From contig JAJEKV010000039.1 in assembly GCA_021234155.1 (NCBI GenBank), positions 64,001 through 128,000 of the forward strand: a stretch of DNA of 64,000 nucleotides, given 5' to 3'. Numbering within the stretch: the stretch's first letter is position 1; each line of letters starts with the position of its first letter. The position numbers and the translations under genes are program-made. Positions 23,832-63,529 of the stretch are shown piece by piece. Below the pieces are notes generated by a model. It did no database searches. It was not told where the DNA came from and saw nothing but the letters and a program-made list of their open reading frames with translations. This DNA comes from Isoetes taiwanensis (lineage: Eukaryota > Streptophyta > Lycopodiopsida > Isoetales > Isoetaceae).

Positions 23832-24010
23832 TGATAAATTATCCAATTCTTGTGGAGAATAGATAGATGAGCTTGTATTGAATAATATATAGGAACAGAT
23901 ATATATATGCATCTCAATGATGCGACTCTCTACATCTAACTGACACGACTCTTGGACATGTGGACATATATGACATGGCTGTATGCTGACTAGGATATTA
24001 TATGTTAACA
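23832..24010 (-). repeat. 3' LTR of the small LTR element
   Basis: This LTR is nearly identical to 27100-27285, apart from a 9-base deletion near ATATATGC. It has TG..CA ends and is preceded by the GTGAA duplication. Confidence 0.8.
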
Positions 24011-27037: not shown

Positions 27038-27099
27038 TTCTGCTTACTCACTAGGATCGATCAGGTCCCAGGATCAAGAGCCTACAGGCTCTGATACCA

Positions 27100-27285
27100 T
27101 GATAAATTATCCAATTCTTGTGGAGAATAGATAGATGAGCTTGTATTGAATAATATATAGGAACAGATACAAAACATATATATGCATCTCAATGATGCGA
27201 CTCTCTACATCTAACTGACACGACTCTTGGACATGTGGACATATATGACATGGTTGTATGCTGACTAGAATATTATATGTTAACA
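27100..27285 (-). repeat. 5' LTR of the small LTR element
   Basis: TG..CA-bounded 186-bp LTR on the minus strand, followed by the primer site (27099-27087) and flanked outside by GTGAA. Confidence 0.8.
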
Positions 27286-33072: not shown

Positions 33073-33506
33073 AGATTGAAACGGCAAATAAAATCACACA
33101 AATTCTAGATTTTTGGAAAATTCCCGATTTCTGGAAAACCGTTTTTTTTTTCAGGCGTCTGAGAATCCCAAAAACCTTAGGGAAATCAAGTAGAAAAAAT
33201 TCCAAAAACATTTTTCTCCAGACCGGAAATTTCCAAATTAACAAGATTGATATATAGGTGATTCTGGTGCAATATATGGCTACAATTGGCGTTTTTGGAA
33301 ATTTTTTAAGGCATATATAAGGGGGTTTTTTACGACCCCTTGCATGCACATGAGGTATCCCGTATGTGACGTTCCAGGACAGTATACGGTCCTAGGACGT
33401 ATACTGTACTGCCTCGTCACGCGTACACGCCACCCCGACTGACGTGTACGCCAACGTGTAGCTAGGTTAGTAGCCTAGGGGGCAACGTGTAAGGAGTGTG
33501 CAATTA

Positions 33507-33665
33507 TTAATGTGCACATTCATTAATGTGCACATTCACTTAGGTGCACATTTCCCCATATGGCCACTTGATACCAAGTGGGCCACACCCATAGGTGCAA
33601 TTAATGTGCACATTCTCCAATGTGCACATTCATTAATGTGCACACATTTCCATGTGGGCACATTT
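33507..33665 (+). promoter_or_regulatory. GTGCAC-containing repeats in U3
   Basis: Five to six copies of (T)AATGTGCACATT(C), each centred on the palindrome GTGCAC, lie 100-250 bp upstream of the TATA box. Clustered palindromic words in U3 are typical of enhancer sites. The binding factor is unknown. The same cluster is preserved in the 3' LTR (about 45633-45790). Confidence 0.5.
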
Positions 33666-33758
33666 GGCCACCTAAGCCTTAAAGGCAAGTGGGCCAATTT
33701 CCAATTATCCCACATGCCAAAAGGGGATAATTGGAAACCCTAGCCACCCCCCCTTGTC

Positions 33759-33764
33759 TATATA
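33759..33764 (+). promoter_or_regulatory. LTR TATA box
   Basis: TATATA within CTTGTCTATATAGGG, conserved in both LTRs. Transcription would start about 30 bases downstream, near AAACCCTAA. Confidence 0.5.
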
Positions 33765-35030
33765 GGGTGGGAAACCCTAACTTGCCCATTTTCGTTTCTA
33801 GGGCTTTAGAACTCTGTTTTGGCTGCCTCAACAGCCAAAACCGCCTCCCAGACTCTGCCTGGGAGAATTGCACCCTTAGTTTCCATTGATTCGAGCGTTT
33901 CAGCAGGATGGTCGAGCTCAGGTCAGGAGGAGCCCCTCAAGAATCAGGTATTGAGCCAATTAGATAGTCTAAACCCTATTTCAGTCATAGAATCAGTAGG
34001 TTTAGCCTCTTAGATTGCCCATAGCAGCTCTCTAGATCTCTAGATAGCAGATTCTAACTAAAGAACCTAACTCTATGTTGTAGATTAGATCTAGTTCTTT
34101 AGTTCTCTGTGAAGTATATGGATGAGGTATCTCTATGAACTCCTTGTATTGGGAAGGGGGTAGAGACCTAAAGCTTTGTAGTTGATGCTCCTAGAGTAGC
34201 CTCTCTAGCACACTGTAGATTCGGCCAGTGCACAAGAACCACACCCAGGTTGTGGGTGAAGGGGCCAGGCCCGGCTAAGAAGGAGGTTCATGTCGACTCT
34301 TGAGCGATCCCTCCGGTGTGTAAAGCCTACCGGGATCATTGTGACTAGGTTCGATGGCTTGCCACCACATGTGGGGCAAGGCATGGGCTCGACACCCGCG
34401 TGAAGTGGTGTTCACTTTCCGTGGGTTCAATGAATCACGGGCGGTGGCCCTCTAGTCACCTTGAGTCAGCATGTAGATCTCTGGAGGGAGTGATCCCTAC
34501 CTGCCCCATCGGAACTGGGAAGATGAGCCCAGGAATAGCCCTTTTGGCTATGCATCCGGCGGGCTACAGTCAGGTCCCGACACTTTTCAGCCCACTCTGC
34601 AAAGTGTGCACAGGAGGGGCGGATGGAGTGGACAACCCTATGCCATATTCATATGCCAGCCAAATCAATTGCCATGAATTCTGTCTGCAATGAACTCTGG
34701 AGACCCAAGCCGTCAGTCATCCCCTTGAGTCTGAGCCTTGGGTAGGATTCCCCTTATGTATTGTGCTCACCTTGTTTATGCAGATGTGATGGACCACCCT
34801 TCGAGGTGGATATGTGCTTATGTTATGTACTGACATGTATGTTTACGCTTCTGCAGCTAGGTAGGCCCTGAGGGAGACGGGGTAAAATGACCCCTTCACT
34901 CTTCCCACTGGAACCCGTCATGGTTGCAGTGTCATGTGGAGGGCCCTGTATCGGCCCGGAGCTGGTATGGGGGGATGAACTCCTGTTTGTATACGGTGAG
35001 GGCACCGTATGCGAGTAGGGGACGTCACAG

Positions 35031-35042
35031 TGGTATCAGAGC
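35031..35042 (+). other. Primer binding site (initiator Met tRNA type)
   Basis: TGGTATCAGAGC starts one base after the 5' LTR and is the usual complement of the 3' end of plant initiator tRNA-Met used by many LTR retrotransposons. Confidence 0.9.
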
Positions 35043-35667
35043 TATGTTCTTGGAGACCAAGAGCAAAGCACTGGCCATGTCCCAATAGTACTAACTTGAT
35101 AGGATCCTTAAACCTCGAAAAATGGGAAATTTTTTTCTCATTTTTATAGTTTTGCTAAGCTAGTAACAGTTAAAATAAATGAAAACATAAAAATAGTGAG
35201 AATTGGTGAACCAACATCCAAAAAGTAGGGTGGTCTCACACGTCGTGCCAGGACAGGAAATGACATTTTCATTTTCGGTCAATAACGTGTGAGACATTCA
35301 AACTTTTAGACACCAAAAAGTTGTAAACTACAGTGAAATAACTTGATAATTCTAATTTTAAGCTAAGAATCAGTAGATGTTCAAAAAGCACAAAATTTAG
35401 TAGTGGGCCCCACCATGTCTCACACGTCGCGCCAGGACAGGAAATGACTTTCTCATTTTCGGGCTGGGCGCAACGTGTGAGACCTTGCTTAATTAGGTGT
35501 TTTAGATGCTTTAGGCAACCCAAAAAGGTAGTTTAAAAGTTGACCTAAAAATTGGCCCTATAAATAGACCTAGACCCCTCCCATTTTCGCGCTCTCCCTT
35601 AGAACTTTGCTCGTGCTTGCTAAGGCGATCTTCTGGCGCTTAGCTCCGATCGACAAACTACCAAATG

Positions 35668-36948
35668 ATGGCCCGCACCAAACAGACTGCAAGGAAGCCT
35701 AGACGAAGCGGATCCTCCAGAATCCTCCAAATAACGTTCTTCAGAGTCCTTCGAGAACTTATGAAGGCGACCTTCTTCGAAATGAGGAAGCAGGATCGGA
35801 TCGGAGCGACCGACAGAGCTCAGAGAGAGGACGACCGCCTGACATCATGCACCAAATCCGAGGAGATCGACAGAGGAGGGAAGAAGCAGGAGCAAACAGA
35901 GCGAGAGGGGCCAATGTTCGTGAGCAACCCAGAGGACACCCACCCACGTGAGGAGTATAGCCGAGCAAGCGGACGACCAATCAATCGTGAGCAACCCCAA
36001 GCCGAGATCCACCGCAGAAGAGCAAGGAAGAGAAGAGCAAGCTGTACCAACACTCATCCCGCAGAAGAAGCCGATCTTGCACGCCCATCGCCAGTATGAA
36101 GCCAAAGAGCCGCCGAGCGTGAGCGTGGGACTAAGAGTCGGAGGATGACCCGACCCCCGCCCAGCCCAAGAAGAGGAAGGCCAAAGCCATTAAGGCGGGC
36201 AAGAGGAAGGTAGTGAAGGTCGGCGAAGTTTTTGGCCGGGTCCCGGATCAACGAAACCAACAGCGCAGCAGACCCCCTCTCTACCCACCCACTGGACGAG
36301 GATTACGCCCCCAACCCGTAGGGGCGAAGCTCTTCAAAACCCCACCCGCGGAGAAGGAGGTACCCGAAAGCGTGTGGCACTGAGGAAGATCAAATCCGAG
36401 CGGTGCATCAAGCCCCCACCTTTTCCAATGTGGGATAGAGTTAAAGCCACCACCACAACGGAGATTCACGCGGATAGACCCGGCCAAGGTCTATCGGAAG
36501 AAGATCAAAGAGCACAACGCCGCACATGGTGAAGTGGGAGGCATAAATGCCTACTATCGAACAACATGGTAAGAACTATCGGCGACACATCCACAAGAAG
36601 TCGACCTTGAAGCCACCGCCACCCGCCCAAGCCTCCCCGAGCACCGTAAGAAGCGGAGCAAGAAGAAGAAGTTGAGGAGAGTTTCAAGGAGATCCGCCAC
36701 TTCCAGGAAGAGTTACTGGACTCTTGATCCCGGGCCCGCTTCAACGCTTTGGTTCGTGAAGTCATACAGAATACAACACGGATATCGAAGTAACAAGCGA
36801 AATGTTGCTGTGCCTACTGGAGGCGTGCGAGGCAAAAAATAGTCAAACATTTTGAAGATTCAACGGCCCGCGATTACACGCCAAGAGGGTTACCCTCATG
36901 AGGCGAGATATGTATCTTGCCGGGCACATCAAGGGAGAACGGCCTTGA
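35668..36948 (+). pseudogene. Histone H3-like coding region carried by the retrotransposon (frame broken)
   Basis: The frame starts M-ARTKQTARK (Met at 35668; a second Met lies just upstream), identical to H3 residues 1-9 including K4 and K9, with Pro in place of S10. It stays open to 36099. A basic segment with PKKRKAK lies at about 36165. From 36683 the three frames together give segments resembling the H3 fold in the right order: FKEIRHFQEELL (alpha-N), FNALVREVIQ (alpha-1), MLLCLLEACEA and IVKHFED (alpha-2), and HAKRVTLMRRDMYLAGHIKGERP followed by stop at 36946-36948 (H3 C-terminus). At least four frame changes separate them. The linker (~300 codons) is far longer than in H3. Function is unknown. 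Confidence 0.75.
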
Positions 36949-37195
36949 AAATGTTTTTGTAAATAATGAACATTTTTGCTAATGTAAAGAATTTTTGTGT
37001 AAATAAAGTCTCAGATCTTGTTTAAATAAGTTAAGATATCGATTCCTAGCTTTTGTTTTAGTTAAATTGGAGCTTTGAGCAAAATTGAGACGATGTCTCA
37101 CACGTCCGCGCCGGGATGTAAAAATGAGATTCTCATTTTCGGGCTGGGCGCAACGTGTGAGACCATGCCCAAAAGTGCCCAAAACGGAACTCCAT

Positions 37196-37641
37196 ATATA
37201 TCATCCGGGATGTGGTTAATCCGGACAAAATAGAGTGGTTAATCCGGACATCCGGTATCAGCCAGGGTGGTTAATCCGAACATCCGATATCAGCCAGGGT
37301 GGTTAATCCGGACATCCGATATCAGCCAAATGGTTAATCCAGACAAAAAGTGGTTAATCCGGACAAAACCAAGCGTAGACTGCTGTGAGGGGGCGAATTT
37401 TGATCGATCGCTCTTTGCTCCCGTGGCGGTTTGATCCACTTTAAAAAGCATGCCAATCGCTTTGTATGCCTCTTTTATGTTAGATTGATGAAGAGAGGAA
37501 GAGATTTAAGACGAAATAGAGCAGAATCGATCAAAAAAAGGGCAAAAACAGTTGGTTTTTTGGCTTCAAACTGCGCAGGTCCTGATTAACCACAATGGCT
37601 GATAACGGGTGTCCGGGTTAACCACATCCCGGATGATATAT
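37196..37641. repeat. Fold-back element inside the leader
   Basis: Arms 37196-37226 and 37611-37641 are inverted copies around ATCATCCGGGATGTGGTTAA and its complement. The left side also has four to six tandem TGGTTAATCC(G/A)GACATCCGATATCAGCC words (37213-37370). The flanks share 'cccaaaac..(a/c)tcc'. This may be a small TIR element inserted in the leader of an ancestor, or native leader structure. Confidence 0.7.
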
Positions 37642-38139
37642 ACGGTCTTCCGCCCAAAACAGCTCCAAATCGACCAAATAAGGGGTGAATTCTGCCTAAC
37701 TCGATGAGTTTAGTGGAATTGCAGCCTTAGATCACTTAAATTGAGTAAGGCTAGCCCAATTAGGACCCATGTCTCGCACGTCGCGCCAGGACAGAAAATG
37801 AGATTCTCAAAATCGGTCTGGGCGCAACGTGTGAGACCTCGTACCATTTTCCTCACCAAATGATCTCCAAGTTGTTGCAATAGGCTCATTAGTTGTTCTT
37901 AACATGCTCAAACCCTAGAAATAGTCTTCAAACTTGCAATTGCATCCCTTAATAGATCAGAATCACCTGATCTCAGTAAAATCTAGGTCATCCAAAAATT
38001 AGAATTTCCCCCAATTCTATAAATAAGTTCCCCATTTCTCATTTAGCACCCTGCAAATTTGCTCTCCACTGCTTAGGCGATCTTCCAGCTCCTTGAGGCG
38101 CTTCTGCATCCGTCTGTTACTCCCTTCCTTGCTAGATCA

Positions 38140-39648
38140 ATGGCCACCGCCGACTTGGGCGATGGTGCAGTAGCCGGTGCTACTATCTTTGCCGAGGCGG
38201 ATGTCAACGACATCTTCCAAGTCTTTGGGAAAGAAATTGATATCCAAGCTACACTAAATGCAACCCCAGCATATAGGCAAGTGCTAGCAGAGTTTCAAGC
38301 TAGGGTAGGACCCTCCCTTGTTCAGGTCCCTCCTTGCATAGGATATTTCGTTCCCTACCCATCCTTTCAAAGCGAAATTGGGTGATGTCCCTAACATCGC
38401 CAAGTACTTAACCAACAAGGCGCAGAGGTTACCTGACTACATGGTCCTAACAGCCAATAGGACCAAGTATTTCTCTTACACCGCCGCCCTAGCCATCTTC
38501 TTATCCCACCGCGCCGAAAACCAAATGGGGGCAACCTCTATCCCTCCGATGGAGGTGGACCCCATAGCAGCCCAAGCAGAAGAGCAGATGCTTCTGCAGT
38601 ATCAACAAGAGTAGGAAGGAGAAGACGAAGAAGAAGAGGAGTCCGACGACAATAAGTACACGGAGCTCGACTCAGATGAAGAACTAGCCAGCGCAGCAGA
38701 GCCGATCAACTTCGGAGCTTCAGGCATCGAGTTGCTCCCCACTCGGGCTAGGCATCACAAGCCTAGCCCCTATCATCATCAACGGAGAGGAGTATCTACT
38801 CCTCAACACATCGGGGAACCTTCCCAATGCGGGAGAGGGAGCCCGGATTGATGAATCGCTCCCACCAAGCTGCGGCGAGGCCGACGCATGGGCGACTTCA
38901 TCGTCCGGGAGCCTCGGACTTCCCGCCAGGTCGGAAAGCCAACACCTACCACGGGGAAGCGGCCTCCCGCGTATCCGTGCCTACAGCAAAGATCGAGGCA
39001 AATGATGGACGAAATGGAGCTGCCAACAGAGGAGGAGTTCCTCGCCCTCAAGAACAGATGGGGATCCGCTGAAAACCACGAGCATCCTAATGCCTAGGCC
39101 TTGACACCACCCCAAGAAGAGGAGGAGGAATCGACCTGGGAGAGTCGACTCCACAATTGAAGACTACCGAGCTCACCGAGATAGAGGCTAAGCCAGTATC
39201 TGAGGCGACATAGAGCGGGAGGCCAAACAAGCCGAGAAGCTTCAAACAACCTGGCAACCAGGTCTCTCGTGTACTACTTGCCGCCAGCCGGATGGGAGAG
39301 TAGCAATAATACACCGCAAGTTCAGTCCCAGGTGAAGAAGGAGGTTCATGCCGATTGCACTCTCGTGCCCAGGCAGCATGCTCGAATAGCAACAAACGTC
39401 GACTATGCTGTCCTAGTCAAGAGGGCAATGGCACTTGACCTCTTCGACTTCGCCATACCCCATCGACGTCATGCGAGATTGGCGGTGACTGCGGCCCTTA
39501 CATCCGACCGCAGGGTAGAAGACACAGTGAGAGCCTTGGCTGGGGCTCGTCGCCAAACATCATCGGGAACTTGGGTCACTCAGTAGGGACGGCCCAAGTT
39601 AAGAAGTTTCTTGAAGACAACCCGTCTTACCGGCGATTTCAAGACTAG
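38140..39648 (+). pseudogene. Pre-gag ORF of the chromovirus (acidic protein, unknown function)
   Basis: The first part (38140-38385, from MATADLGDG) continues in another frame to 38614, then through an Asp/Glu-rich stretch (about 38620-38690). A further part (38888-39097) includes the motif ELPTEEEFLALKNR, and 39269-39586 includes ARIATNVDYAVLVKRAMALDLFDFAIP. The region ends NPSYRRFQD and stop at 39646-39648. The minus-strand relative (60962-61731) has matching motifs and the stop at the equivalent place. The protein is distinct from gag and precedes it by about 170 bp. No known domain. Confidence 0.6.
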
Positions 39649-39822: not shown

Positions 39823-40773
39823 GTGGATGCAGCTAGAGGCCTAAGCGCAGGGGAACGACAACTGCGAGAACTTATAGATGAGCAGACCCTGCCCAGACCA
39901 CCCCCGGCAAGGAACCTATTTGAAGATATGGAACCCATGACCCCAGAGGAGGAGATATCCCAGATGAGGACGGACCTTGAGCAGATAAAGGCCTTGCTGT
40001 CCGCGCAAGCAGGAACGGGTTCGGTGGGCAATGCTCAATTGCCACAAGCACCAGCTCGGAAAACAGGAAGAGACAAGAAGAGGAGCAAGAGAAGGAGATC
40101 CCCGAGCTCGGATTCCTCCGACTCAAGCTCAGACTCCGACTCCGAAGAAGAGGAAGAGCAGGCCCAGGACCGAACAGATGCAAGGCAAAGGAACACTGAA
40201 GAGGGAAGGCAGAGGAACACCCCAGATGGACGACAAAGAGACACCAGGGTCTCTGACTACCAGAAGAAGGTAGATTCCGCGCTGGGCAATGTATGGAAGG
40301 CCCGCAAACTGGAACAATTCTCGGAGGAGAACAGGTCAGGATTAGAAGCAGAGGCATGGCTGGACGAAATGAGTGAGTACGGCAATGCTTATGGCATGAA
40401 GGATAAAGACAAAGGAAGAGTGGCAACAGCCAACTTGAAAGGAGCCGCACGGATTTGGTGGAAGGGCTATGCAAAGGCACATGGCTTAAGCAGGGATGCT
40501 TGTAAGTTCAGGAAGTTTGCTAAAGCCTTCAAGCGCCATTACGTCCCAAGGGAACACAAGTCCAGTATGATGCGGCAGTTCTATAGGCTCCAACAGGGAA
40601 ACAAAGCAGTCCAGAAATATACAGAGGAATTCACGAGGCTAAGGCTGTATGTGCCAAAGTTGGGAGAGAAACATGCAGTAGAAAGCTATATTGAGGGGTT
40701 GAATGAGGAGATCCGCAAGCTTGTGAGGGCAATAAACCCTAAGACAATGTCGGGCGGGAGTCCAAGGCTATAA
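39823..40773 (+). CDS. gag: Gag (Retrotrans_gag type), chromovirus
   Basis: The frame is open for 316 codons. The N-terminus is charged (residues 1-140, with Ser/Asp/Glu-rich and Arg-rich tracts). Residues about 150-300 match the plant Retrotrans_gag domain (AEAWLDEMSEYG, KGAARIWWKGYAKAHG, FRKFAKAFKRHYVP, FYRLQQGNKAVQKYTEEFTRLR). The frame ends early, just after KLVRAINPKT, by an apparent frameshift. A zinc-knuckle-like Cys pair follows out of frame at about 41033-41090. It packages element RNA in virus-like particles. Confidence 0.85.
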   Translation: MDAARGLSAGERQLRELIDEQTLPRPPPARNLFEDMEPMTPEEEISQMRTDLEQIKALLSAQAGTGSVGNAQLPQAPARKTGRDKKRSKRRRSPSSDSSDSSSDSDSEEEEEQAQDRTDARQRNTEEGRQRNTPDGRQRDTRVSDYQKKVDSALGNVWKARKLEQFSEENRSGLEAEAWLDEMSEYGNAYGMKDKDKGRVATANLKGAARIWWKGYAKAHGLSRDACKFRKFAKAFKRHYVPREHKSSMMRQFYRLQQGNKAVQKYTEEFTRLRLYVPKLGEKHAVESYIEGLNEEIRKLVRAINPKTMSGGSPRL

Positions 40774-41548: not shown

Positions 41549-41628
41549 CCTTCCCAACACCCGACGCAAGATCATTGAGATAACAGTAAGGAAGTTGTTC
41601 CCATCATGCGGTGTATGTCTTCTAAAAT

Positions 41629-42557
41629 TTGTTCAAGTGCATCAAGAGTGAGCAAGTGGCATACATCTTCAAGCTTGAAATTAGTGAGCCGGAATCGGAG
41701 GGAAGCAAAGAAGACAAGGTGCTCAGCAAGTTGCCGAAGCAAATAGCTAAGCTGATCACGGAGTTCTATGACCTCTTTCCAGATGAGATCAAGCAGCTCC
41801 CTCCTTATAGGGGAGTCGAGTGCGAGATAGCACTCGAACCGGGAACAAAGCCAACAAGCAAGGCTCCATATAGGATGACAACGCAAGAGTTGTCGGAGCT
41901 AAAGAAGCAGTTGCAAGAGCTGCTTGACCTAGGTTTCATTAGACCTAGTGTTTCGCCATTTGGAGCGCCCATTCTCTTCGTTAAGAAGAAGGATGGCAGT
42001 TTAAGGATGTGCATAGACTATAGGCAGCTGAATAAGCACACCATTAAGAACAAATATGCACTCCCAAGATCAGATGACTTGATGGATCAGCTACAAGGAG
42101 CAAGAATCTTCTCCAAAATCGACTTAAGGTCAGGTTATCATCAGATCAGGATAAAGGAAGAAGACATCCATAAGACCACCTTCAGAACGCGGTATGGGCA
42201 TTATGAGTTCACGGTAATGCCTTTCGGCTTATCGAATGCCCCGCGACGTTCATGAGACTCATGAACGACATCTTCAGGGAGTTTTTAGACACCTTTGTGA
42301 TTGTTTTCTTTGATGACATTTTGGTGTATAGCAGATCCCTTGAAGAGCACGCACAACACTTGAGAAGAGTCTTTGGAGAAGTTGAAGAGGCACCGGTTAT
42401 CGCCAAGTTGTCGTGCCGCCACTTCGCAAGAGAAGGTGGAGTATCTCGGTCATGTGATCTCGGCAGAAAGGCATCTCGACGGATCCCGCAAAGATTGAAG
42501 CCGTCATTCAAAGGGCCGGCCAAGAATGTGCATGAAGTCGAAGCTTTCTCGGCCTAG
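41629..42557 (+). pseudogene. Reverse transcriptase of the chromovirus, one frameshift
   Basis: 41629-42255 covers the RT fingers and palm: a connecting stretch ending [13 protein letters not shown], then [62 protein letters not shown] and FGLSNAP. A frameshift at about 42240 moves the remainder to 42252-42557, which has the catalytic FFDDILVYS. The shift sits at a CCGCG where relatives usually have a CAG-type context. Confidence 0.85.
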
Positions 42558-43400
42558 CGGTACTACAGGAAGTTCGTGAAGAACTTTGCTAAGATAGCGG
42601 CCCGATTACGGGACTTGGCGGGCGGAGAAAGTGAAAGATTGGGCGAGCATTGGCACAAGAAAGCCCGCTGGGTTTGAATTGTTGAAGGAAGCTTTAACAA
42701 CCGCCCCTCTTAACCCCTCCGGACCCGAGAAAAGACAAGCTTGTAGCAACGGGCGCGAGTAAGATAGCCACAGTGCGGTGCTTTATGCAAGAAGAGCGCA
42801 GGTAGCGTATGATTCCGGGGAAGATGAATGACGCCGAAACGCCGCTACCCCACGCACGCATCGTGAATTGCTTGCGGTTGTCGGTATGTTAAGAATTTGG
42901 AGGCACTACCTTTTGGGAAGGAAGTTCCAGTTGGATACTGCAACCACCGAGCCTCCAATATGTATTCACGCAACCACACCTCAACCCGAGGCGCAGAAGG
43001 TGGATGGAGTTCCTTGAAGAGTATGACTTTGATATAGTCTACAAGCCGGGAAGCTCAATGTGGTAGCGGATGCGCTTTCAAGGCATCCCCTCGACAACTA
43101 GAGTGCATTGCAACGCAATTTCGACCCTCTCCAAATACTTTGGTAAGAAGATTGAAGATTCCTTTGCCAACGGATGTGGATTTCAAGGAAGTATGGGCAA
43201 GCCTCTCTAAGGAGGCTAGAAATCGTATAAGGAGCGGGAAGCCTTTAAACATTATAAGAAGGAAGGCAACTTGTTGTACCATAAGAACAAGTTGTGCGTG
43301 CAGAATCATCGGGTCTACGACCGCGCACAACAAAATAATAGCTGGCCATGCGATTCATGAAAACATATTTCAAAGTCTTGGCAGCCTATTATTGGCGAGA
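42558..43400 (+). pseudogene. RNase H region of pol, heavily frameshifted
   Basis: Short pieces on different frames are consistent with the RNase H-connection region: a YRKFVKNFAKIA-like start at about 42558, then SRGAEGGWSSLKSM-like and KPGKLNVV-like pieces around 42990-43070. No single frame is longer than about 90 codons. Confidence 0.55.
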
Positions 43401-44263
43401 ATGAAGAAGCGGTAGCTCGCTACATCAAGGAATGCCGGCTATGTCGCCAGACGAAGGCGAGCGACTTCAATCCTGGAGCATTAGAGCCATTAGCGGTGCC
43501 AAACGCCAAGTGGGAGGTGATTAGCATGGATTTCATCACAGGGACTCCCAAGGACCGTAAGAGGGAAAGATGCTTTGATGGTAGTAGTCGACAAGTTGTC
43601 GAAAATGGCACATTTTGTGCCTTGCGGGACCACGATACGGCTGGATACAAATGAAGCTCTTCACCAAAGAGATCTTCAGCTTCATGGCATGCCAAGGGAG
43701 ATTATCTCCGACAAGGACCAAGTTCATGGCGCCTTTTGGCAAGACCTCTTTCAAGGCGACAATCCGCACGGTTATCCATGAGCACGGCGTATCATCCTCG
43801 AGACGGATGGCGGGACGGAGGCGGACCAACAGATTTTTTAGAGGACATGCTACTAAACTATGTCCGAATAAGCAAGGTATGTGGGAAGAATTTATTCACT
43901 TGGTGGAGTTTGCCTATAATAGCACCAAGCAGAATCATCCCAAATGTCGCCATTTATGATCAATTCACGACTATCGATTGCCTAACTCGGACATTTGGCA
44001 CAAGCCCCGTGTCAAAAGTGGAAGTTTCGCAGCCAGATGTTGGCCGATATCACGGACTTGTGGAAGAAGTTCGAGGGTATCTGGCGGGCAGCAAGAAGTC
44101 GTCAAAAGAGCATCGTAACAAGCATCGAACGATAAGAGAGTTCAAAGTTGGAGATGATGTTTGGCTCAAGATCAAGGTGAAGCGGTGGCTTCGACCGGAA
44201 TTGCAAGAAGCTTCTCCAAGGTGGGCTTTTGGACCTTTCGAGAAAAGTCAAGAGAGTAGGTAA
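43400..44263 (+). pseudogene. Integrase region of pol, frameshifted
   Basis: Pieces include a zinc-binding C-terminal part (Y-I-K-E-C-x-x-C-R-Q-T-K), an ISMDFITGTPKD catalytic strand, VVVDKLSKMAHFVPC, HGMPREIISDKDQVHGAFWQDLF (second catalytic Asp region), a degraded STAYHP motif at about 43780-43830, and WEEFIHLVEFAYNS. Several frame changes occur at CGGA/CGAG words where conserved motifs would have CAG or CTG. Confidence 0.75.
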
Positions 44264-44269
44264 TCAATC

Positions 44270-44580
44270 CTACAAGTTAGACTTGCCAGCACACCTAAAG
44301 ATTCATAAGGTCTTCCACGTGAGTTTGTTGAAGAAGCATACTCCAAATCCAGACGAAGTCTTGGACACTCCAACGTTGTTGGAAATGACGAGGAGCAAAT
44401 TGAAATAGTCCTGCAATGATTCTTGATAAAGCTTTCAAGAAAACAAGGAGGTCAAATTCCTCCAAAGATTTGGTCAAGTGGAAACACTTACCGCTGGAAG
44501 ACGCTGGCGTGGGTACTTAAGAAAGATCTAGTAAAGCAATATCCGCAGTTTATGGAGCAATGGGACGACAAGGTCATCTC
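44270..44580 (+). pseudogene. Chromodomain-like C-terminus of integrase
   Basis: After the SYKLDLPAHLKIHKVFHVSLLKKH motif common to chromovirus integrases, the sequence around 44440-44580 reads, over two frames, LVKWKHLPLEDA and KKDLVKQYPQFMEQW. This resembles the 'YLVKWKG-x-x-x-x-x-x-TWE' chromodomain core. Chromodomains of this lineage recognise methylated histone H3 and guide integration. Confidence 0.6.
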
Positions 44581-44599
44581 CGAGGAAATCGGCTCAGGC

Positions 44600-45475
44600 A
44601 TGTCGATATGTGTAGATTAAGTCTATGTGTAGTTAAGATTAATCTACGCATGCAACCTATGCTAGGTATGGGTCGCATGCGTGTGACCGATGATGAGACC
44701 ACTACGGTGATCTCTAGGGCGTGGTGTAATGTCAATGTAGGCATGACCGCATTTTCGCTTGGGCGAGTGGAAGATAGATTAGAAAGTCTACTGTCCCCAC
44801 GGAAGTAGACGACCTCGAAGAAAGGAGGTCATGAAGGAATGCACTGATAGGAAAAGCACCTCTAGCCCCATATTTGCTTTGATAGGAGGAATCAGGCCTT
44901 CACGCCCCATATACGGGAAGGACCTATCCTCCACGCTGGGCAACTAGGGTGTAGGCATGAGCGGCATATAGGCATATAGGCGCCGTCTCCACGGCCATAA
45001 TGGAAGATTCACCCTCTTCCTACGCCGGGAGATTAGCCATGCATCCATGTAGATAGGTGGGGTGGTCACCATATAACCAAAATTTTATTAATAATTAATT
45101 AATGATACTAACGTAGTGTCGACCTGCAGGCCAATAGAGCGCTCCGGAGGGCAAGGAGGTCGAGCTACGAAGACTTGCAACACAAATTTTGTTGCAATGT
45201 GTTGCAAGGAATGAAGAGGACCTCGGACCTTAATCTTAATTTTGATAAACTTAATTGTTATGTTAAGTGAATTATTGAGTAACCTGTTTTAATGGTGTAT
45301 GAATTGATAAGTTATTTCATAATATAATGGCGCGATAATGTCCTAAAAATATTACCTTTAAGGTAATCTTAATAAATGTGTAAGTATTATAGTAATTATC
45401 TTATGTATCAGGTTGATTGCAGGTTAGGATGATCCCAAGGTGGGGAGACCCACGATGCTGCGGACAGCATCATTT
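44600..45475 (+). other. 3' untranslated region of the chromovirus
   Basis: No coding sequence recognised. A decoy polypurine word (CCCAAGGTGGGGAGACC) lies at about 45434-45450, about 40 bases before the true one, and may be a duplication. Confidence 0.5.
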
Positions 45476-45489: not shown

Positions 45490-47151
45490 TGTGACGTTCC
45501 AGGACAGTATACCGTCCCAGGACGTATACTGTACTGCCTCGTCACGCGTACACGCCACCCCGACTGACGTGTACGCCAACGTGTAGCTAGGTTAGTAGCC
45601 TAGGGGGCAACGTGTAAGGAGTGTGCAATTATTAATGTGCACATTCATTAATGTGCACATTCACTTAGGTGCACATTTCCCCATATGGCCACTTGATACC
45701 AAGTGGGCCACACCCATAGGTGCAATTAATGTGCACATTCTCCAATGTGCACATTCATTAATGTGCACACATTTCCATGTGGGCACATTTGGCCACCTAA
45801 GCCTTAAAGGCAAGTGGGCCAATTTCCAATTATCCCACATGCCAAAAGGGGATAATTGGAAACCCTAGCCACCCCCCCTTGTCTATATAGGGTGGGAAAC
45901 CCTAACTTGCCCATTTTCGTTTCTAGGGGCTTTAGAACTGTTTTGGGCTGCCTCAAACAGCCAAAACCGCCTCCCAGAACTTCTGCACGGAGAATTGCAC
46001 CCTTTAGTTTCCATTGATTCGAAAGCGTTTCAAATAGGATGGTCGAGCTCAGTCGAGGAGCCCCTCAAGAATCGGTATTGAGCCAATTAGATAGTCTAAA
46101 CCCTATTTGGGTCCATAGAATCGGTGGGTTTAGCCTCTTAGATTGCCCATAGCAGCTCTCTAGATCTCTAGATAGCGATTCTAACTAAAGAACCTAACTC
46201 TATGTTGTAGATTAGATCTAGTTCTTTAGTTCTCTCAGAAGTATATGGATGAGGTATCTCTATGAACTCCTTGTATTGGGAAGGGGGTAGAGACCTAAAG
46301 CTTTGTAGTTGATGCTCCTAGAGTAGCCTCTCTAGCACACCGTAGATTCGCCTGTGCACAAGAACCACACCCGGTTGTGGGTGAAGGGGCCAGGGCCCGC
46401 TAAGAAGGAGGTTCATGTCCCGACTCTTGAACGATCCCTCCGGTGTGTAAAGCCTACCGAGGGATCATTGTGACTAGGTCGATGGCTTGCCACCGCTGCG
46501 TGTGGGCAAGGCATGGGCTCGACACCGTGAAGTGGTGTTCACTTTCCAGTGGGTTCAACCGAATACGGGCGGTGGCCCTCTAGTCACCTTGAGTCGAGAT
46601 GTAGATCTCGGAGGGAGTGATCCCTACGCCCCCATCGGAATCGGGAAGATGAGCCCGTGAATAGCCCTTTTGGCTATGCATCCGACTGGCTCTGATCAGT
46701 CCCCGACACTTTTCACCCACTCGCAAAGTGTGCACGGGGAGGGCGGATGGAGTGGACAACCCTATGCCATGTTCATATGCCGGTAAATCCATTGCCATGA
46801 ATTCTGTCTGCAATGAACTCTGGAGACCCAAGCCGTCAGTCATCCCCTTGAGTCTGAGCCTTGGATAGGATTCCCCGTATGTATTGTGCTCACCTTGTTT
46901 ATGCAGATGTGATGGACCACCCTTCGAGGTGGATATGTGCTTATGTTATGTACTGACATGTATGTTTACGCTTCCGCAGCTAGGTAGGCCCTGAGGGAGG
47001 CGGGGTAAAATGACCCCTTCACTCTTCCCACTGGAACCCGTCATGGTTGCAGTGTCATGTGGAGGGCCCTGTATCGGCCCGGAGCTGGTATGGGGGATGA
47101 ACTCCTGTTTGTATACGGTGAGGGCACCGTATGCGAGTAGGGGACGTCACA
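45490..47151 (+). repeat. 3' LTR
   Basis: 1,662 bp with TG..CA ends, followed by CCGTA. The first ~430 bp are essentially identical to the 5' LTR. From about 45,930 to 46,800 there are many small indels, mostly where the 5' LTR has CAG or CTG and this copy has CG. Confidence 0.93.
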
Positions 47152-47156
47152 CCGTA

Positions 47157-48187: not shown

Positions 48188-51100
48188 TTACACGGAGATG
48201 CTATTTGGGACACCACGAGCAGTGATTCCTGGACCAGATTTGGGACAAAACAATTCATACGGAGGCACCCCAGCTCCATGTCTATTCTTAAGTTTAGGGT
48301 CGTTATTTCTTGCTGAGATCACCGCCTCTAAGCTCTCAATTTCATGAGAGAATTTTTGGAATGCCTTTAATACTTCATTGTCATTTGTCCAATTGCGTTG
48401 AGTCCTTGTTCCTAGATATTCTTCATCTGAAGAATGTGTTGAAAGAGCTTCTAGTGCAGCCATAACTGTGGTTGCCTGAACCTGACTTGGAAGTGTTCCT
48501 AAGTAATGTTTCTGAGGGTTTTGGAGGAAGCGCTTGTACTCTATGTCACCTTCCTCAGGGATCAGTTTTCTTGTCAAGCATGGGAGATTAGGAACGTAAC
48601 CTGCATAGAAAAACTGGCCAAAGTTGACACCAGTATGGTGTCCTGCTGCAATCCAGATTATTGTGGTCAGTATTTGACTTAAATCTTCCTTGTTCTTTAG
48701 ACTAGGCCACCATGGTTCATCTTTCTTGTCACGATGCCCTTGAGTTCTTATCTCTGTCCACCAATTCTGAAGCTCAACGTCATTGATTACAGTCTCAGGG
48801 TCCCTATAGTACAATGAGACATAGGTTTCTACCCAGGATTTAATGCTAGACCATACAAGAAGTCCATCTGCTGCATACGGATAGTCCTCAAGTACAAGAC
48901 GCAATCCATGTGGTGCAGAAGGATCTTCTACAGCCATACCTCTGTACATACATTCCAAGTTAGCCATCTTTAATTATAATGGTGCCACAAATAAACTGAT
49001 TATGCAGATATTACAACCAACCTCTTGATCAAATCTGCAGGCAATCCCTCTTTGTCAAAGCGCCACTCAGCTGCATAAGCTGCAGAACTCATTTCCAATG
49101 CATATTGGCCTGGAGTAAAGCACTTCTCTATGATGCCATCTACACTAATCAGTGTTTGTCTTGCAGCTCCATTAATATCCAGGGTGTATCTTAAATGTGG
49201 AAGAAGCAACTTATATATAGGGTGCATGGTACTCAATTGTCTATGAGTGGCAATCACATAAGGCTCCATGCAGGCATGAGCTCTCAACCTATAACCTCGA
49301 ACAAGTCAATCCAATCAGTTTATTCTTGACCAAGCCAGATGTATAAAAATTCTTGCTTATGAGAAATATATACCAGTGACAAACAAGCTGGTGATATCCA
49401 CAGTGATTATTGCTGACATGAGTTTTTGCAAGCTGCCACAACCAATTAATGGTTGGCTCGTGTCCTGGACACATTACTCTTTTACTTCCTTGGGGCCTAG
49501 TTTCTGAAGGAGGTAAGCTTAACTCTATTGCGATAGGCCTGAGGATCCCTGCTTTGTCTGAATACAATATTGTCCTGGTGGCATAGGTTTTACGCCCATC
49601 AAGTGCATTGATTCTCTCAACAAATGGCATGAAAATATCGTAGTAGTCAACTATGAACAGTTTCTCCTTCGCAATTGCCTGCAAGAAGTAAAGATTATAA
49701 ACAACACAGATACAACCCACACTTCTAGGACGTTGAATATGAAGCAGTGCTACCTCTTCGACTGTTAGCCCCTCAAGAGATGGTAACAAATGCTCCTCCT
49801 TAAGGGCTGACATTTTAAGCCCATATGTCTCATCTAACTGACTGACTGGAGGAAATTCCTGTAAGTCTCAAAAGTTAGGTCAACGAAGGGAAAAAATTTA
49901 TAGTCCCTATTTCTGTTTAGGATCTTACTGTGAGCCTTCTAATTCTCAATGGGTTAATACCACATAGCATTTGACGCCCAAATTCAGAATCTCTCATCCA
50001 AGCAAACTTGTCTCCTGCAGTTGAAAATATTAGATAAAGGATCTATATATATTCTATACAGATAAGAGATCATTTCAGAATCAGCTGTCTTATTTGCAAG
50101 TACTTACTGTGAAGCAACTCAGGCACTGGAAATTGCAAAAGATGAGATACGCCTTTTCTAGAACTGATAACTTGTTTTATGGTTCCTGGAATAGGTAGAA
50201 AGTCCCAAATGGTTTTATCCGCATCATCGTAAGTAGTTAGTTCAAGGCCTTCATGGTAGAGACGGTCGATATCAGAAAAGCTTTGAAACTGCTTTGGAGC
50301 CTCTCTGAAGTGATTGACTATTGCTGGAACAAGCCTGTTAATGATACCCTTCATTCTACCAACAGCAATATATTGAGCTTTAATCTGGTCGAAGTCCTCG
50401 TCTCTAGGAACATAAATCTTGTCCAGCAATGGTAATCTGGTCTCACAGGTAGCATCTGCATGGTGCATTAAGTAATAAGCCCAAGTGGAGTACTAACTTT
50501 TGATGCTTTAATCTTCGTAATGACATGAATGGACATGGTGATTTTAACAGATAACTTTGTAGAATATTTATGATTGCATGGTGATGTTTGCCAAAACCAT
50601 CAAAGTTGGATAGTGACATCGATTCTAATCAGTTGCAGCTGCATAATTTTCTAAAACTTCAAAACTATCTGATCAGAAAAGCTGGCTTTCACGAAGACAC
50701 ATAAACCCTAGCAATGCTCTTAAAGACCTGAAATCAATCTGAATAACAAAACGCACCATTTTTGCAGGGAGGTCGGCCAGTTCTGCAGCGGCGAGGATAT
50801 GGATGCTTTTTAGATCCTCCAAGGGTAGGGCGGATAGAGTTTGGTCCCTTATTAGGATCGCCCAGATCATTATAGACATCATAGTCGTAAACACGTTCCC
50901 ATTTCTTGCGCAAACCCTTGCCAGTTCCTCTCAGAGCTCTGAGCTCAGCTTCTCGCAAATCCTTCAGCCCTTCCGGAGTTTCAGAGGGCAAATACACCTA
51001 CCATAGCCATGGCCACCATTCTGTCATTCCATGGAAAAAAAAAACTAAAAGTTCAAGGCTCTCATGGTTACCTGATTTGAGAAGAAGACCCTTTTTGCTT

Positions 51101-53003: not shown

Positions 53004-54380
53004 ATGTTGGCCATGATGGCTTCCTCATCTAGAACACATGCACAAGCTTTTGCTTCAATCTCTGACCGGAGTCTGGTAATCAGTGATAATCCTTTCACTT
53101 TGGCTCTCCAGTCAGGCTTTGATCAAGTTGCTGGTGCTCCAGATCTTTCTTCTTCTGATTTTCCTGAATTGCCATCTAGATCTGTTGCTACACCTCCTCA
53201 CCCGTCGGCATGGAAGCCTTCCACATCTGGTGAGGGTATATCTCGAATGCACTAGTGAATGGATCAAGAAGGACGTCTCTTCTGCAGTGGCAGCATCTCG
53301 CATTTCCAGTGCTATTGACCTTATGGTCCATGATAACAGGAAAGATCTCAGTAATCTTCTAGGGGAGCTTAAGGCAAGGGAGTCTCAATTGAACCTTCAG
53401 TTGCCTCCAGTGGATGTGTTCTATCAGGCAGATGTGTGTAAGAATACTCTTCAGGCATCAGGTTATGGCGTGGCAGAGATTGATCATGAATTGCATAAAA
53501 AGTGTATTGGCAATCTTGTCTCTTCAGCTGTGGTGGCAGATTATACTGGTGCTTATCTGGATTCTAGGAATTGGCTACTGGTTGACAGGCAATCTTCGCA
53601 GAATTGGGCTACCTGCTTACCGCACATCGAAGATGTTGGATAAGAGGTTCTTTTTAATTGTGTTTTGATGATGCGGATGCTGTGGATAAGCTTGTGGCTC
53701 ATAGTGTAGATCCGATGTGGAGCGACTATATCTTATATCAACCATACTCTCCTGGCTTTACTCCTGGTATGTTGACTGCTGTCAAAATGCCCTGCTGGTT
53801 TTCAATTCCCAACTTGCCTCCTGATCTTCTATTGTCTGAGTTTCTCATTAATATTGCTAATGCTTTGGGCAAACACCTGTCCTATTCTATAGTCGATGGT
53901 GCCAAGATATGTGTGACTCTCCCACGTGGTCGTGCCTTACCTGACTGTGGTGTTGTTAAAAGTGGCCCTCTGTTTTTCAAATTTGGATTGGAACTACTTA
54001 ATAGTCCTCAACTCGCCTTGCTCTTTCCCCACCTTGCCATGTTTGACAACTTTCGAGTCCAAAGAGATCAGCCTATGCCAATCCCCATCACACCTCCAGC
54101 TCCATATGCTGATGTTCCTTCTTCGCCCCCTCCATATTTAGGTTCTTCCCCTCAGGCTAAAGGGAGGGAGAACATTGATGCCCATGTAGTTGTGTCTCAA
54201 ACCAGCCCATTCTTCGGTGTTCTAAGTGATGCCTCAAGAGAAGCTGCAAAAATTTCAAGAGGCCCAAGAGCGTAGGGAGCAAGATGGGTGGCAAAACGTG
54301 AATCTGAAGAAGGCTGCCAGGAATAAGTATTTGCAGTCTATCTCTCAAAGCCGCAAGTTCTGGTGGATAATATAAATGGA
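53004..54380 (+). pseudogene. LINE ORF1 (DUF4283-type), frameshifted
   Basis: Pieces: 53004-53255 (start MASSSRTHAQAFASISDRSL), 53240-53643, then 53658-54275 with YSPGFTPGMLTAVKMPCWFSIPNLPPDLL...INIANALGKHLSY, the DUF4283-like domain. A Pro-rich segment (PITPPAPYADVPSSPPPYLG) precedes the C-terminal piece, which continues in another frame to about 54374. The copy at 63530-64000 keeps the frame open at the place where this one breaks (about 54234). It is an RNA-binding chaperone by analogy with LINE ORF1. Confidence 0.75.
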
Positions 54381-59654: not shown

Positions 59655-60888
59655 TCATCCACCAGAATTGGTCCAGCATATCCCTCTGCCTCTTAAACCC
59701 AGGTATCTAACAAAAGAAATTTTCATTTCACAAGATACCACCACTTTTTGAATCTTCACTAGATTCTTTATGACCATGGAGAATTTTATGACCAATAGAT
59801 TTACTAATATGTTGTAGTGATTGCCTCTTGTGGCCTTCCCCTTGTCTTGATAGTATTGTTGCCTCAGCCCACTCCCTTGAGGTCCTATTCCTTGTAAGCT
59901 CATTGCCTTGGACTCTGCTTCTGCCACTGTTCTGGGGTTTATTACTCTTACCAGCTTCTTGATCTCCTCATTCAAGCCTTCGATGTACCCCTCTACTGCA
60001 TATCTTTCACTCAATTTTGGCACCATGAACTCTTTGGTGTACTTCTGGACTGTCTTATTGCCCTGCTCCAACCTGTAGAACTGTTGCATCATATGGCACT
60101 TGTGTTCCCCTGGCACATAATGACGCTTAAATGCCTTGGTGAACGTCTTAAATCTGCAGCTATCTCTGCTTAACCCATGGGCTTTGGCATAGCCTTTCCA
60201 CCAAATTTTGGTTATTCCCTTGATGTTGGTTGTTGCTACCCTGCCGTTGTCCTTATCTTTCATGCTAGAAGCATTCCCATACTCCCTCATTTCATCCAAC
60301 CAAGCCTCGGCTTCCATTCCAGACCTGTTGTCCCCTGAGAACTGTTCTAACTTCCTGGCTTTCCACACATTGCTTAGTGTCGAGTCGACTTTCTTCTGAT
60401 AGTCGGCTTCCATTCTGCCCCTATCATGGTTGGGACCCTCTCGGCGGTCCTGTCGATCGTTCTCCTGCTCTTCAGACTCGGAGTCAGAGTCGGAACTAGA
60501 GTTGGAGGAATCCGTGCGAGGTGATCTCCTTTTCCCAGCTCTCTTCTTTGCTTTATGCGCTCTGTAGCCGGTGTTTGAAGTAGTTAGACATTCTGGTCTG
60601 GTCCCATTGTTGCCGCCCCTGCCAGCAAGGCTCTTATTTCATGGATATCTGACCTTATCTGCGATATTTCTTCTTCTGGGGTTGGTGCCCGAACTCTTGG
60701 AATAGGTTCCTTGGCTGAAATTGCCTTGTAGGTGTTTGGTCTTCCTGAGGTTGTCTATCTTGTTCCACATTCCTGGGTGCCCTAGCTACATACACATTAG
60801 ATTGCACTCTGATGATTACTGTTTTGTTTGTTATTGCATTAGTTTGTTTGATGATATAGTTGTGGGGACAAAATATATCAAAGAACAC
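59655..60888 (-). pseudogene. Gag of a second, related chromovirus (minus strand)
   Basis: 60413-59655 reads DYQKKVDSTLSNVWKARKLEQF, GITKIWWKGYAKAHGLS, FTKAFKRHYVPGEHK and YIEGLNEEIKKLVRVINPRTVAEAESKAMSLQG, closely related to the gag at 39823-40773 but clearly diverged. It continues past the point where that gag is broken. The upstream start region is in another frame at 60888-60655. The rest of pol is missing; the sequence fades near 59655. Confidence 0.8.
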
Positions 60889-60961
60889 ACATAATTCTAT
60901 AACTTATATTCATAAAGTGCAATATTTTTACAATTGATAAGAAGGAGAGAAAAGTTTTAAT

Positions 60962-61731
60962 CTATTCTTGGAATCTTCTATAAGCTGGGTTGTCCTCCAT
61001 GAACTTCTTCACTTAGGCTGTGCCAACTGTTCGCCCCAAGTTTCTAAGGATGTTGGTGGCCATGCCACCTTGGAGTGCCGTCACCAAGTCTTCGACCCTT
61101 CTATCTGATGTTTAGGTTGCAGTGACGGCCAACCTACCCTGGCTCCTGTATGGGACCGCAAAATCGAAGACGCTTAAAGCTATTATCCTGTTGACCAGGA
61201 TGACGCGGTCGATGTTTGGAGGCATTCGAGCATGTCTTCTGAATCCTGAGAGGGCAATCAGCATGAAGATTCCTTCTTCTCCGCGTGGGCTAAACTGGCG
61301 GTGTATAACTGCTATCCTTCCGTCGGTGAGGAGTGGTAAGTAAAATCTGAGGGCTTTGTCGTGCCCTGTCTCCCCTGCCTGTTCTTTCTGATTCCGGCCC
61401 TGTGTCTTTCGGAGTATTCGTCCACCGGTACCGCTATCATCTCCCTGTAGTCGCCGAACTTGGACCTAGAAGAGGTCAAGTTGATACCGCCTCTTTCTTG
61501 TTCGATTGGTGCTATTGCAGAGGTGGTGGATAAGGGTGCATTCGTTGTTTTCCCTCTGATTCCCATCCGCTCTTGGAGTGCTATGAATTCCTCCTCTGAG
61601 GGTAGCTCCTGCTGTGCCATCATTTGTCTGATGCTGGTGTAAGCTTCGATGTTTGTTAATGACTGGCCAGTGTAAGTGCGCGCCTCTCTAATGCTGATGG
61701 GAAGTCCTGAGTCTCCCGTCGATGAAGTCAT
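60962..61731 (-). pseudogene. Pre-gag ORF of the second chromovirus, truncated
   Basis: 61731-61312 is open and has the motif ELPSEEEFIALQERMG, matching the first element's pre-gag ORF. The following ~340 bases (RRHARMPPNIDRVILVNRIIAL, then FDFAVPYRSQGRLAVTAT) contain one internal stop and end NPAYRRFQE and stop at 60964-60962, equivalent to 39646-39648 in the first element. The 5' part is cut exactly at the CACTA-like end at 61733. Confidence 0.7.
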
Positions 61732-61732
61732 C

Positions 61733-62275
61733 CACTACAAGGGATAGTCGACGTCCAACGACGTCGCGACGTCGAAGAACGACGGGTCGTCGTCGAACAT
61801 CGACGACATCGTCGTTCAACGACGACAACGTCGTTTCGACGTCGTTCAACGACGTTTCTCAGGGCTGACGTGTCGGATTGGCCTGCGTGGCATGGTACTG
61901 CTGCCAAGCTGGCAAGCGTGCGTGTCGTGCCACGTGCACAAAACGTCGTTTAACGTCGTCTCGTGGATCTGACGTGGCACATCCGGCTGCGTGGCTTGCT
62001 GACATGCCAGGCTGGCACGCCACCGTGTTCTGCCACGTCGACATGACGTCGTTGAACGACGACTAAAAATCGGCGTGACCGGTCGGCCGTGGCTTGCTGA
62101 CATGCCAGGCTGGCACGCCAAAGTGTCCTGCCACGTCGACGTGACGTCGTTAAACGACGCCTAGAATATCTGACGTGGCAGCAGTTTTGCCAGCGTGGCC
62201 GGCATCGTCCGCGCCACGCTATTGTCAGCAGAGCGCCACGTAAGCAACGTCGTTTAACGACGTTTTTTTTTTTTT
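61733..62275 (+). mobile_element. CACTA (EnSpm)-like terminal region with subterminal repeats
   Basis: It begins CACTACAAGGGATAGTCGAC at 61733. It is followed by at least six GTCGTT(C/T/G/A)AACGAC palindromes and an internal 98-bp direct repeat (GTGGCTTGCTGACATGCCAG at 61991 and 62089), and ends in a T-rich tract (62262-62281). A 3-bp target duplication would be ATC at 61730-61732. The other end was not found, so the element may be truncated. Confidence 0.6.
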
Positions 62276-63470: not shown

Positions 63471-63527
63471 GAATGCCAAAATTACCCTAGGGACCAAGTT
63501 ACACGGTCAATTTTGCAAAAGAAAGAA
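63471..63527 (+). repeat. ~57-bp direct repeat, copy 2
   Basis: Matches 62333-62389. It ends right where the second LINE fragment begins. Confidence 0.85.
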
Positions 63528-63529
63528 AC

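Follow-up and report, generated by a model that had tools for sequence, protein, structure and literature searches.

A selected histone H3-like gene in the leader of Ty3-type LTR elements of Isoetes taiwanensis

The window element and its leader genes

The window, that is, the whole stretch of 64,000 nucleotides of I. taiwanensis DNA analyzed here, contains a Ty3-type LTR element whose LTRs, each of about 1.66 kb, are 94.7% identical. The features of this element (family F1), together with a remnant of a second element, are as follows:

33365-35029, plus strand: 5' LTR (TGTGACG...CGTCACA), with the CCGTA target duplication at 33360-33364
35031-35042, plus strand: primer binding site TGGTATCAGAGC, tRNA-iMet type
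35233-35295, plus strand: palindromic element GTCTCACACGT...ACGTGTGAGAC, copy 1 5' of ORFA
35417-35483, plus strand: palindromic element, copy 2 5' of ORFA
35558-35567, plus strand: TATA-like box CTATAAATAG, 110 bases 5' of the ORFA start, kept in the F1 copies L031, L033 and L035
35668-36948, plus strand: ORFA, H3-like gene, frame-broken in the window copy (tail MARTKQTARKP at 35668-35700, H3 core at 36680-36948)
within 36662-36724, plus strand: H3-like piece KEIRHFQ
within 36728-36790, plus strand: H3-like piece LVREV
within 36787-36852, plus strand: H3-like piece LLEACEA
within 36833-36880, plus strand: H3-like piece IVKHFED
36877-36945, plus strand: H3-like piece HAKRVTLMRRDMYLAGHIKGERP, followed by a stop at 36946-36948
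37095-37163, plus strand: palindromic element, copy 1 5' of ORFB
37771-37837, plus strand: palindromic element, copy 2 5' of ORFB
38018-38025, plus strand: TATA-like box 5' of ORFB
38140-39097 (extent approximate), plus strand: ORFB, second leader gene, broken in the window copy
39928-40773, plus strand: gag (Pfam Retrotrans_gag and Ty3_capsid)
41626-44617, plus strand: pol, broken (RT pieces in 41626-42554; integrase pieces; SH3_Tf2-1)
45490-47151, plus strand: 3' LTR, with the CCGTA target duplication at 47152-47156
59655-61734, minus strand: remnant of a second element, of family F3 (gag and part of ORFB)

The primer binding site TGGTATCAGAGC is presumably the complement of the 3' end of plant initiator tRNA-Met. 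The first-pass annotation of this DNA had described an element bounded by LTRs and a CCGTA duplication with an H3-like ORF in its leader, and the LTRs, the duplication and the primer site confirm that description. It had also reported an ORF start identical to the H3 tail and, about 1 kb further on, segments in H3 order; the ATG at 35668 indeed opens MARTKQTARKP, and the segments are present, spread over two frames. In a frameshift-tolerant alignment, 36600-36960 scored 135 against the plant H3 core, compared with a mean of 28.3 and a maximum of 45 for 100 dinucleotide shuffles; among 636 tiles of 400 bases from both strands of the whole window, only three scored above 41, all of which overlap the ORFA core. 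These two controls rule out chance resemblance to H3. The last 23 residues of the window ORF alone gave a Pfam Histone match below the curated cut-off (E = 0.003) and matched Cse4/H3 chains in PDB (best E = 0.0006). A protein search with the linker (residues 13-143) yielded 13 candidates, none at E <= 10.

The rve and H2C2 matches of the window's integrase pieces are weak, and its chromodomain (approximately 44404-44570) is discernible by eye alone, by comparison with L034. Differences between the window LTRs are patchy, ranging from 0 to 14 per 100 columns, and relative to the intact copy L008 there are 62 indel runs in 1192 bases of ORFA and 15 in 858 bases of the flanks. Because the published assembly is Nanopore-based (PMC8566536, in the part of that paper drawn on here), the LTR differences are patchy and the ORFA indels are denser, part of the breakage of the window copy may be uncorrected consensus error. 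The pattern looks as if repeats had been left partly unpolished. Between the two palindromes 5' of ORFB, at 37190-37650, lies an inverted-repeat insertion with ends like CATATATATCATCCGGGATGTGGTTAA (judged by eye), perhaps a small DNA transposon, which is missing from the same place in L033.

Three other F1 elements were read, each as two adjoining stretches (L031/L032, L033/L034 and L035/L036). Their LTR pairs, again of about 1.66 kb, are 92.2, 92.7 and 95.8% identical, and all three carry the primer site and ORFA. The 3' LTR region of L031/L032 is compound; the other two elements have LTRs with TG...CA ends and 5-bp target duplications (ATGTC in L033/L034 and CTCTT in L035/L036). A pol domain scan of one piece per element (L031, L034 and L036) identified protease followed by RT in L031, RT, RNase H and the integrase zinc domain in L036, and a chromodomain at the integrase C-terminus in L034 (PF00385, E = 4.4e-10). 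The order of gag and then PR-RT-RH ahead of integrase is that of a Ty3/Gypsy chromovirus (Metaviridae). The earlier label "chromovirus" is thus upheld by L034, although Pfam Chromo was not matched by the broken chromodomain pieces of the window copy.

By eye, and aligned to HP1, the L034 chromodomain (VPELILDKA...YLVKWKHLP) is without the first and third aromatic cage residues, and it does not have the HP1-type Y24 and Y48 of the Tcn1-like group I. Chromodomain cage residues are the criterion separating group I from group II chromoviruses (PMC3350952, in the part of that paper drawn on here), and the F1 chromodomain looks like the group II type. The idea that the element's own chromodomain reads its own H3 tail is weakened by this likeness, and a loop through its own H3K9me is left without support because L034 is missing the two cage residues.

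In L033 and L035, two palindromes (GTCTCACACGT...ACGTGTGAGAC) about 200 bases apart lie 5' of each leader gene (in L033 at 2503-2770 for ORFA and 4337-4602 for ORFB), and CTATAAATAG follows the pair, 94-123 bases 5' of the ATG of both genes. The window copy has both palindrome pairs, that of ORFB being 676 bases apart, and both TATA-like boxes; in L031 the pair and the box precede ORFA, while upstream of ORFB we found one palindrome and no TATA-like box. These upstream repeats are apparently duplicated promoters, and because palindromes and TATA-like boxes precede both leader genes, each gene looks like a transcription unit of its own. A palindrome pair followed by CTATAAATA is seen 5' of each F1 leader gene in the window, L033 and L035.

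ORFB is open over 508 amino acids in L033 (4905-6428), with no Pfam match, and nothing in PDB matches it below E = 0.93. A 501 amino acid relative encoded in a public sequencing contig (P0124) is 47% identical at 99% coverage. Among the ten pairs of five ORFB copies, dN/dS is approximately 0.11-0.25 in eight; the two least diverged pairs, both of which involve L007 and cover 160 codons only, have values of 0.64 and 0.74. By these ratios ORFB is constrained as well. ORFB is common to F1, F2 (24% identity), F3 and the one public contig.

Copies, selection and related families

A DNA search of the same genome with 35600-36960 as query (40 scored of 1830 first-look candidates) returned 54 matching pieces including the window, at 70-84% identity outside it; this copy number, like those of families F2 and F3 below, is a lower bound. 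Thirty loci (L001-L030, L001 being the window) were cut out and read. In five of them ORFA runs in a single frame from start codon to stop codon and encodes a protein of 411-451 amino acids (L005, 439; L006, 417; L008, 417; L011, 411; and L016, 451, which begins MACTKQ). The remaining 25 are not open through, among them L003 and L004, which have no indel relative to L008 but a frame split by a stop. The intact proteins consist of the tail ARTKQTARK (in four copies; ACTKQTARK in L016), a long element-specific middle and then a full H3 fold. MARTKQTARK is exact in 16 of the 30 loci, and the proline at position 10 that had been pointed out in the window copy holds in 15 of the 17 loci with a readable tail, the other two having Leu and His. 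The middle region carries basic blocks (KKRKAKAIKAGKRKVVKVGKR and KKRSKKKK); the "very long basic linker" of the first-pass annotation was nevertheless not borne out as stated, since residues 1-322 of L008 have a pI of 7.8.

Against Pfam Histone, the intact copies L006, L008 and L011 scored 98.1, 95.5 and 96.1 bits (E = 5.7e-28 to 3.6e-27), with a cut-off of 26.4 bits below which the broken window pieces stay. The initial reading had been made dependent on whether other family members possess the ORF and whether profile searches detect a histone fold. Other members do possess it, five of the 30 open throughout, and three intact copies lie far above the Pfam cut-off. A one-off insertion of H3 into the window element is ruled out by the copies elsewhere in the same genome.

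In PDB, L008 matches H3.3 best (E = 3e-28), and its leading matches are canonical H3s; CENP-A is absent by name among the best 60 of 175. The intact F1 protein P0002 gave 2775 matches, and among the 120 listed all carry Pfam Histone and none is more than 48% identical. Two of the matches that were read, P0031 and P0106, are H3 doublets, which indicates that these matches align by the fold.

Across the ten pairs among the five intact copies, the NG86 method gave dS of 0.100-0.475, dN of 0.016-0.093 and dN/dS of 0.15-0.25, and eight copies open over the fold gave a pooled pN/pS of 0.10, both measures being biased toward low dN by the choice of open copies. Within the 95-codon fold of the five intact copies there are 0 to 5.5 non-synonymous changes per pair, and L005 and L008 differ there by 11 synonymous and no amino acid changes. 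Substitutions by codon position in 29 copies versus L008, a count that takes in broken copies too, were 732/700/1479 in ORFA, compared with 732/547/690 in the upstream and 380/341/298 in the downstream flank; the third-position excess of ORFA is absent from the flanks. We conclude that ORFA is almost certainly a gene with a complete H3 fold kept by purifying selection.

A protein search of the genome with plant H3 (150 scored of 9064 candidates, all at E <= 6e-49) separated 15 whole H3 genes (96-98% identity), taken as host genes, from 135 matches at 71-86% identity to H3, many of them in open frames of more than 400 amino acids. Five of these 135, copies of a second family, F2 (L052-L056), were read, along with the surroundings of one (L057 and L058). 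The latter (L057 2467 to L058 9478) is a complete LTR element with LTRs 92.8% identical, a CCGGC duplication and the order primer site, ORFA, ORFB, gag, pol. Its 409 amino acid ORFA starts MAITKRAPDP, has no ARTK tail in the copy read and ends in the H3 core; the N-terminal region is unrelated to that of F1, and its 300 N-terminal residues are acidic (pI 5.9). F2 ORFB is 24% identical to F1 ORFB over 279 amino acids (E = 4e-10), and pol matches of at least 100 amino acids are 68-81% identical between the families. Neither a palindrome pair nor a TATA-like box was found upstream of ORFA in this F2 copy.

Searching the genome with the 409 amino acid protein (102 scored of 11953 candidates, all at E <= 1.4e-195) gave 68 stop-free sequences among the best 102 matches, 57 of which span residues 1 to 408 or 409. 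In L054, 84 of the 95 positions of the F2 core carry the host H3 residue. The five F2 copies have dS of 0.11-1.17 and dN of 0.005-0.026, and the F2 fold is more constrained than that of F1. L052 and L054 carry EIAQEF, as does host H3, and the other three F2 copies EIAQQF; Arabidopsis H3 has EIAQDF.

The third family, F3, includes the second element of the window (59655-61734), whose gag is 66.5% identical to that of F1 over 227 amino acids and which by eye retains an F1-like part of ORFB; no H3 was found in the leader of this remnant. F3 occupies at least 40 places in the genome including that one (40 scored of 3942 candidates). Of three 5' flanks fetched, that of L061 contains an H3-like ORFA about 0.7 kb 5' of ORFB, with two stops and no recognisable ARTKQTARK tail, 53% identical to F1 over 163 amino acids including part of the linker (E = 8e-51). 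L059 and L060 have no H3 in the 3.4-3.8 kb upstream of ORFB; they cease to resemble L061 at ORFB or a short distance upstream of it, and their 5' ends look replaced. For these reasons we rejected F3 as a related family lacking H3. Since L061 carries ORFA, the gene was most likely already present before F1 and F3 diverged. The H3-like gene occupies the same position in F1, F2 and F3, in the leader 5' of gag. Because three families have it in the same place and it is under selection in F1 and F2, ORFA is, as judged from these comparisons, a gene that a chromovirus lineage has long possessed and that selection has maintained, and not a one-off capture.

Fold residues and possible uses of the H3-like protein

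Both F1 and F2 keep C110, H113, D123, L126 and I130, which we take to form the H3-H3' contact, and R69, R72, R83 and K115-T118, which we assume to contact DNA. F1 has the changes R42K, R49K, R63P, K64R, K79N, F84V and K122Q and an RPGTV segment ahead of alpha-N, which could weaken nucleosome binding. AlphaFold models were of low confidence (mean pLDDT 54.8 alone and 57.1 with a 29-row alignment), and their Foldseek matches to H3 (TM about 0.36, rmsd above 9) lend no independent support to the fold.

The explanation that we favor overall, with a probability of roughly 0.5, is that a selected, element-encoded H3 fold is used as a nucleosome anchor for an element-specific region. In both F1 and F2 an H3 fold closes an element-specific N-terminal region of about 300 residues, and a histone anchor for such a payload appears to be the most economical reading. 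ORFA would be transcribed from its own promoter, and its fold would pair with host H4 and enter nucleosomes by way of the H3-H3' and DNA-contact residues that are conserved; the nucleosomal fold would then anchor the N-terminal region of about 300 residues in chromatin. We put entry of the ORFA protein into nucleosomes at slightly less than even odds. It would most likely be used on DNA of the element itself, either new cDNA or provirus, where it could keep the element expressible or lead the integration complex to nucleosomes, a specific use that we propose only tentatively and regard as rather unlikely in itself. In F1 only, the ARTKQTARKP end would add a possible site for H3K4/K9 enzymes. 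A wider scenario, possible though doubtful, is that H3 fusions encoded by the element are assembled with H4 on element DNA (or, for F1, in centromere-type chromatin). The element would thereby acquire a heritable chromatin identity of its own making, one that escapes or redirects host silencing and guides integration.

Other uses of the protein have to be weighed against a nucleosome anchor. Viral mimicry of H3 tails is established, and the ARTKQTARK end might act as a mimic or decoy that titrates or recruits H3K4/K9 writers and readers and so blocks silencing of the element. Consistent with this are the exact MARTKQTARK of 16 of the 30 loci and, where the tail is readable, proline as residue 10 in 15 of 17. 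The F2 copy, however, starts MAITKRAPDP, yet the F2 fold is the more constrained of the two; since F2 keeps the fold without an ARTK tail, mimicry would be at most an added function of F1, and we consider it unlikely as the main explanation. For the same reason, the suggestion of the first-pass annotation that the element might compete for chromatin readers or writers is, if read as bait by the H3 tail, not supported as a function shared by the families. The protein could instead serve structurally in the particle, its basic blocks and fold packing or condensing nucleic acid much like an extra nucleocapsid, with no entry into host nucleosomes. The blocks KKRKAKAIKAGKRKVVKVGKR and KKRSKKKK in the F1 middle and the location of the gene 5' of gag in the same element would suit such a role; the acidic N-terminal 300 residues of F2 would not, and an F2 fold that matches H3 at 84 of 95 positions (L054), histone-partner surfaces included, preserves more of H3 than general DNA binding should require, which makes packing in the particle improbable. 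That the gene is a passive passenger, a captured H3 transcript carried without function, recalls the fungal hAT transposons that captured and amplified H3 in copies losing function (PMC6710886, in the part of that paper drawn on here), and 25 of the 30 F1 loci are not open through. Against it stand dN/dS far below 1 in F1 and F2, the same position in three families and the many stop-free copies; the passenger would require the selection data to be an artefact of picking intact copies. We regard it as ruled out by dN/dS and the shared position, leaving it only a very slight residual chance.

The origin of the F1 fold bears on a further alternative, in which F1 derives from a host CENH3 and targets or builds centromere-type chromatin, with canonical H3 captured separately in F2. 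Our tree recovers both F1 and F2 as monophyletic groups and puts F1 on a long branch; by sequence identity, F2 lies near host H3. The F1 residues RHFQ, LLIPRAPF and VTLMRQD are CENH3-like, and Y54F and A135P are the only changes from host H3 common to the 95-residue cores of F1 and F2. The best tree, in which CENH3 was represented by angiosperm CENH3 and human CENP-A only, puts F1 on the same side of a branch as two plant CENH3s, with non-significant support (79/85). The F1 core nevertheless aligns to host H3 without gaps and with a loop 1 of canonical H3 length, unlike the longer loop 1 of angiosperm CENH3s, and it scores higher against host H3 (262) than against CENH3 (201). F1 copies are also scattered over many contigs, and a single F1 plus F2 clade is not rejected (p-AU = 0.156). 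Evidence on both sides is weakened by long branches, and we judge this alternative as a whole to be unlikely; the source of the F1 fold itself may have been H3 or CENH3. H3 was acquired at least once by these elements, perhaps twice.

Relation to known systems and other features of the window

Retroelements are silenced via histone marks, and the chromodomain of chromoviruses is thought to read such marks. With an element that encodes the histone itself, the relation between retroelement and nucleosome would become testable with a single purified protein. Mobile elements carrying host genes are known; what appears to be new here is that a retroelement lineage has a core-histone gene under selection, a gene that has evolved long outside host control with its fold nearly unchanged within each family. 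Among DNA viruses, a bracovirus encodes H4. If the element does make its own nucleosomal H3, it would be the first reverse-transcribing element known to us to encode a working core histone. Our search of the open-licence PMC literature, preprints excluded, found no report of an intact H3 gene under selection in an LTR element, and the word "histone" is absent from the main text of a study of extra ORFs in plant LTR elements (PMC7264820).

Several known systems share parts of this arrangement; each is compared here with the part of the cited account drawn on. In Dothideomycete fungi, first in Pyrenophora tritici-repentis, hAT DNA transposons captured H3 and amplified its coding sequence to tens or hundreds of copies; some of these have been inactivated by RIP, and others are recent and may be active (PMC6710886). 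These are DNA transposons with a captured transcript, and that account describes no long-term selection on the copies, whereas the I. taiwanensis elements are LTR retrotransposons with a fusion gene, a TATA-like box in F1, strong selection and several families. The Culex element Helentron-Cq-32A also contains captured histone sequence (H4 and H15 fragments), but it is a rolling-circle element and the fragments are short, with stops and frameshifts (PMC4067079). An orchid Ty3/Gypsy element resembles ours as a plant Ty3 element with a host regulatory gene as extra ORF, in that case an AlkB-type m6A demethylase; its AlkB domain is functional and is proposed to help the element, yet it acts on RNA rather than being a histone, and the host is an angiosperm (PMC9289625). 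Giant DNA viruses are likewise virus-like genomes with core histones of their own, often as full sets or doublets, and are not reverse-transcribing (PMC9145170, PMC11500106), in contrast to the single H3 fused to a long element-specific N-terminal region found here. Finally, group II chromodomain plant chromoviruses share the gag-pol order and a cage-less, integrase-linked chromodomain, and the account used describes neither a histone gene nor a leader gene pair in them (PMC3350952).

During construction of the I. taiwanensis repeat library, repeats with homology to plant proteins were removed (PMC8566536, in the part drawn on here), and this may be why such elements went unreported. Similar elements may be hidden elsewhere by annotation pipelines in which repeats resembling host proteins are discarded.

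The window holds other features besides the two elements. A 300-base direct repeat (53785-54084 and 63526-63825; 9.7 kb apart, 99% identical) flanks the F3 remnant on both sides and by eye carries LINE-like coding sequence. A minus-strand primer-site sequence, GCTCTGATACCA, lies at 27088 near a direct repeat (23901-24010 and 27176-27285), perhaps marking another LTR element. On the minus strand at 48188-50492, ORFs resemble, by eye, pieces of a plant lipoxygenase gene.
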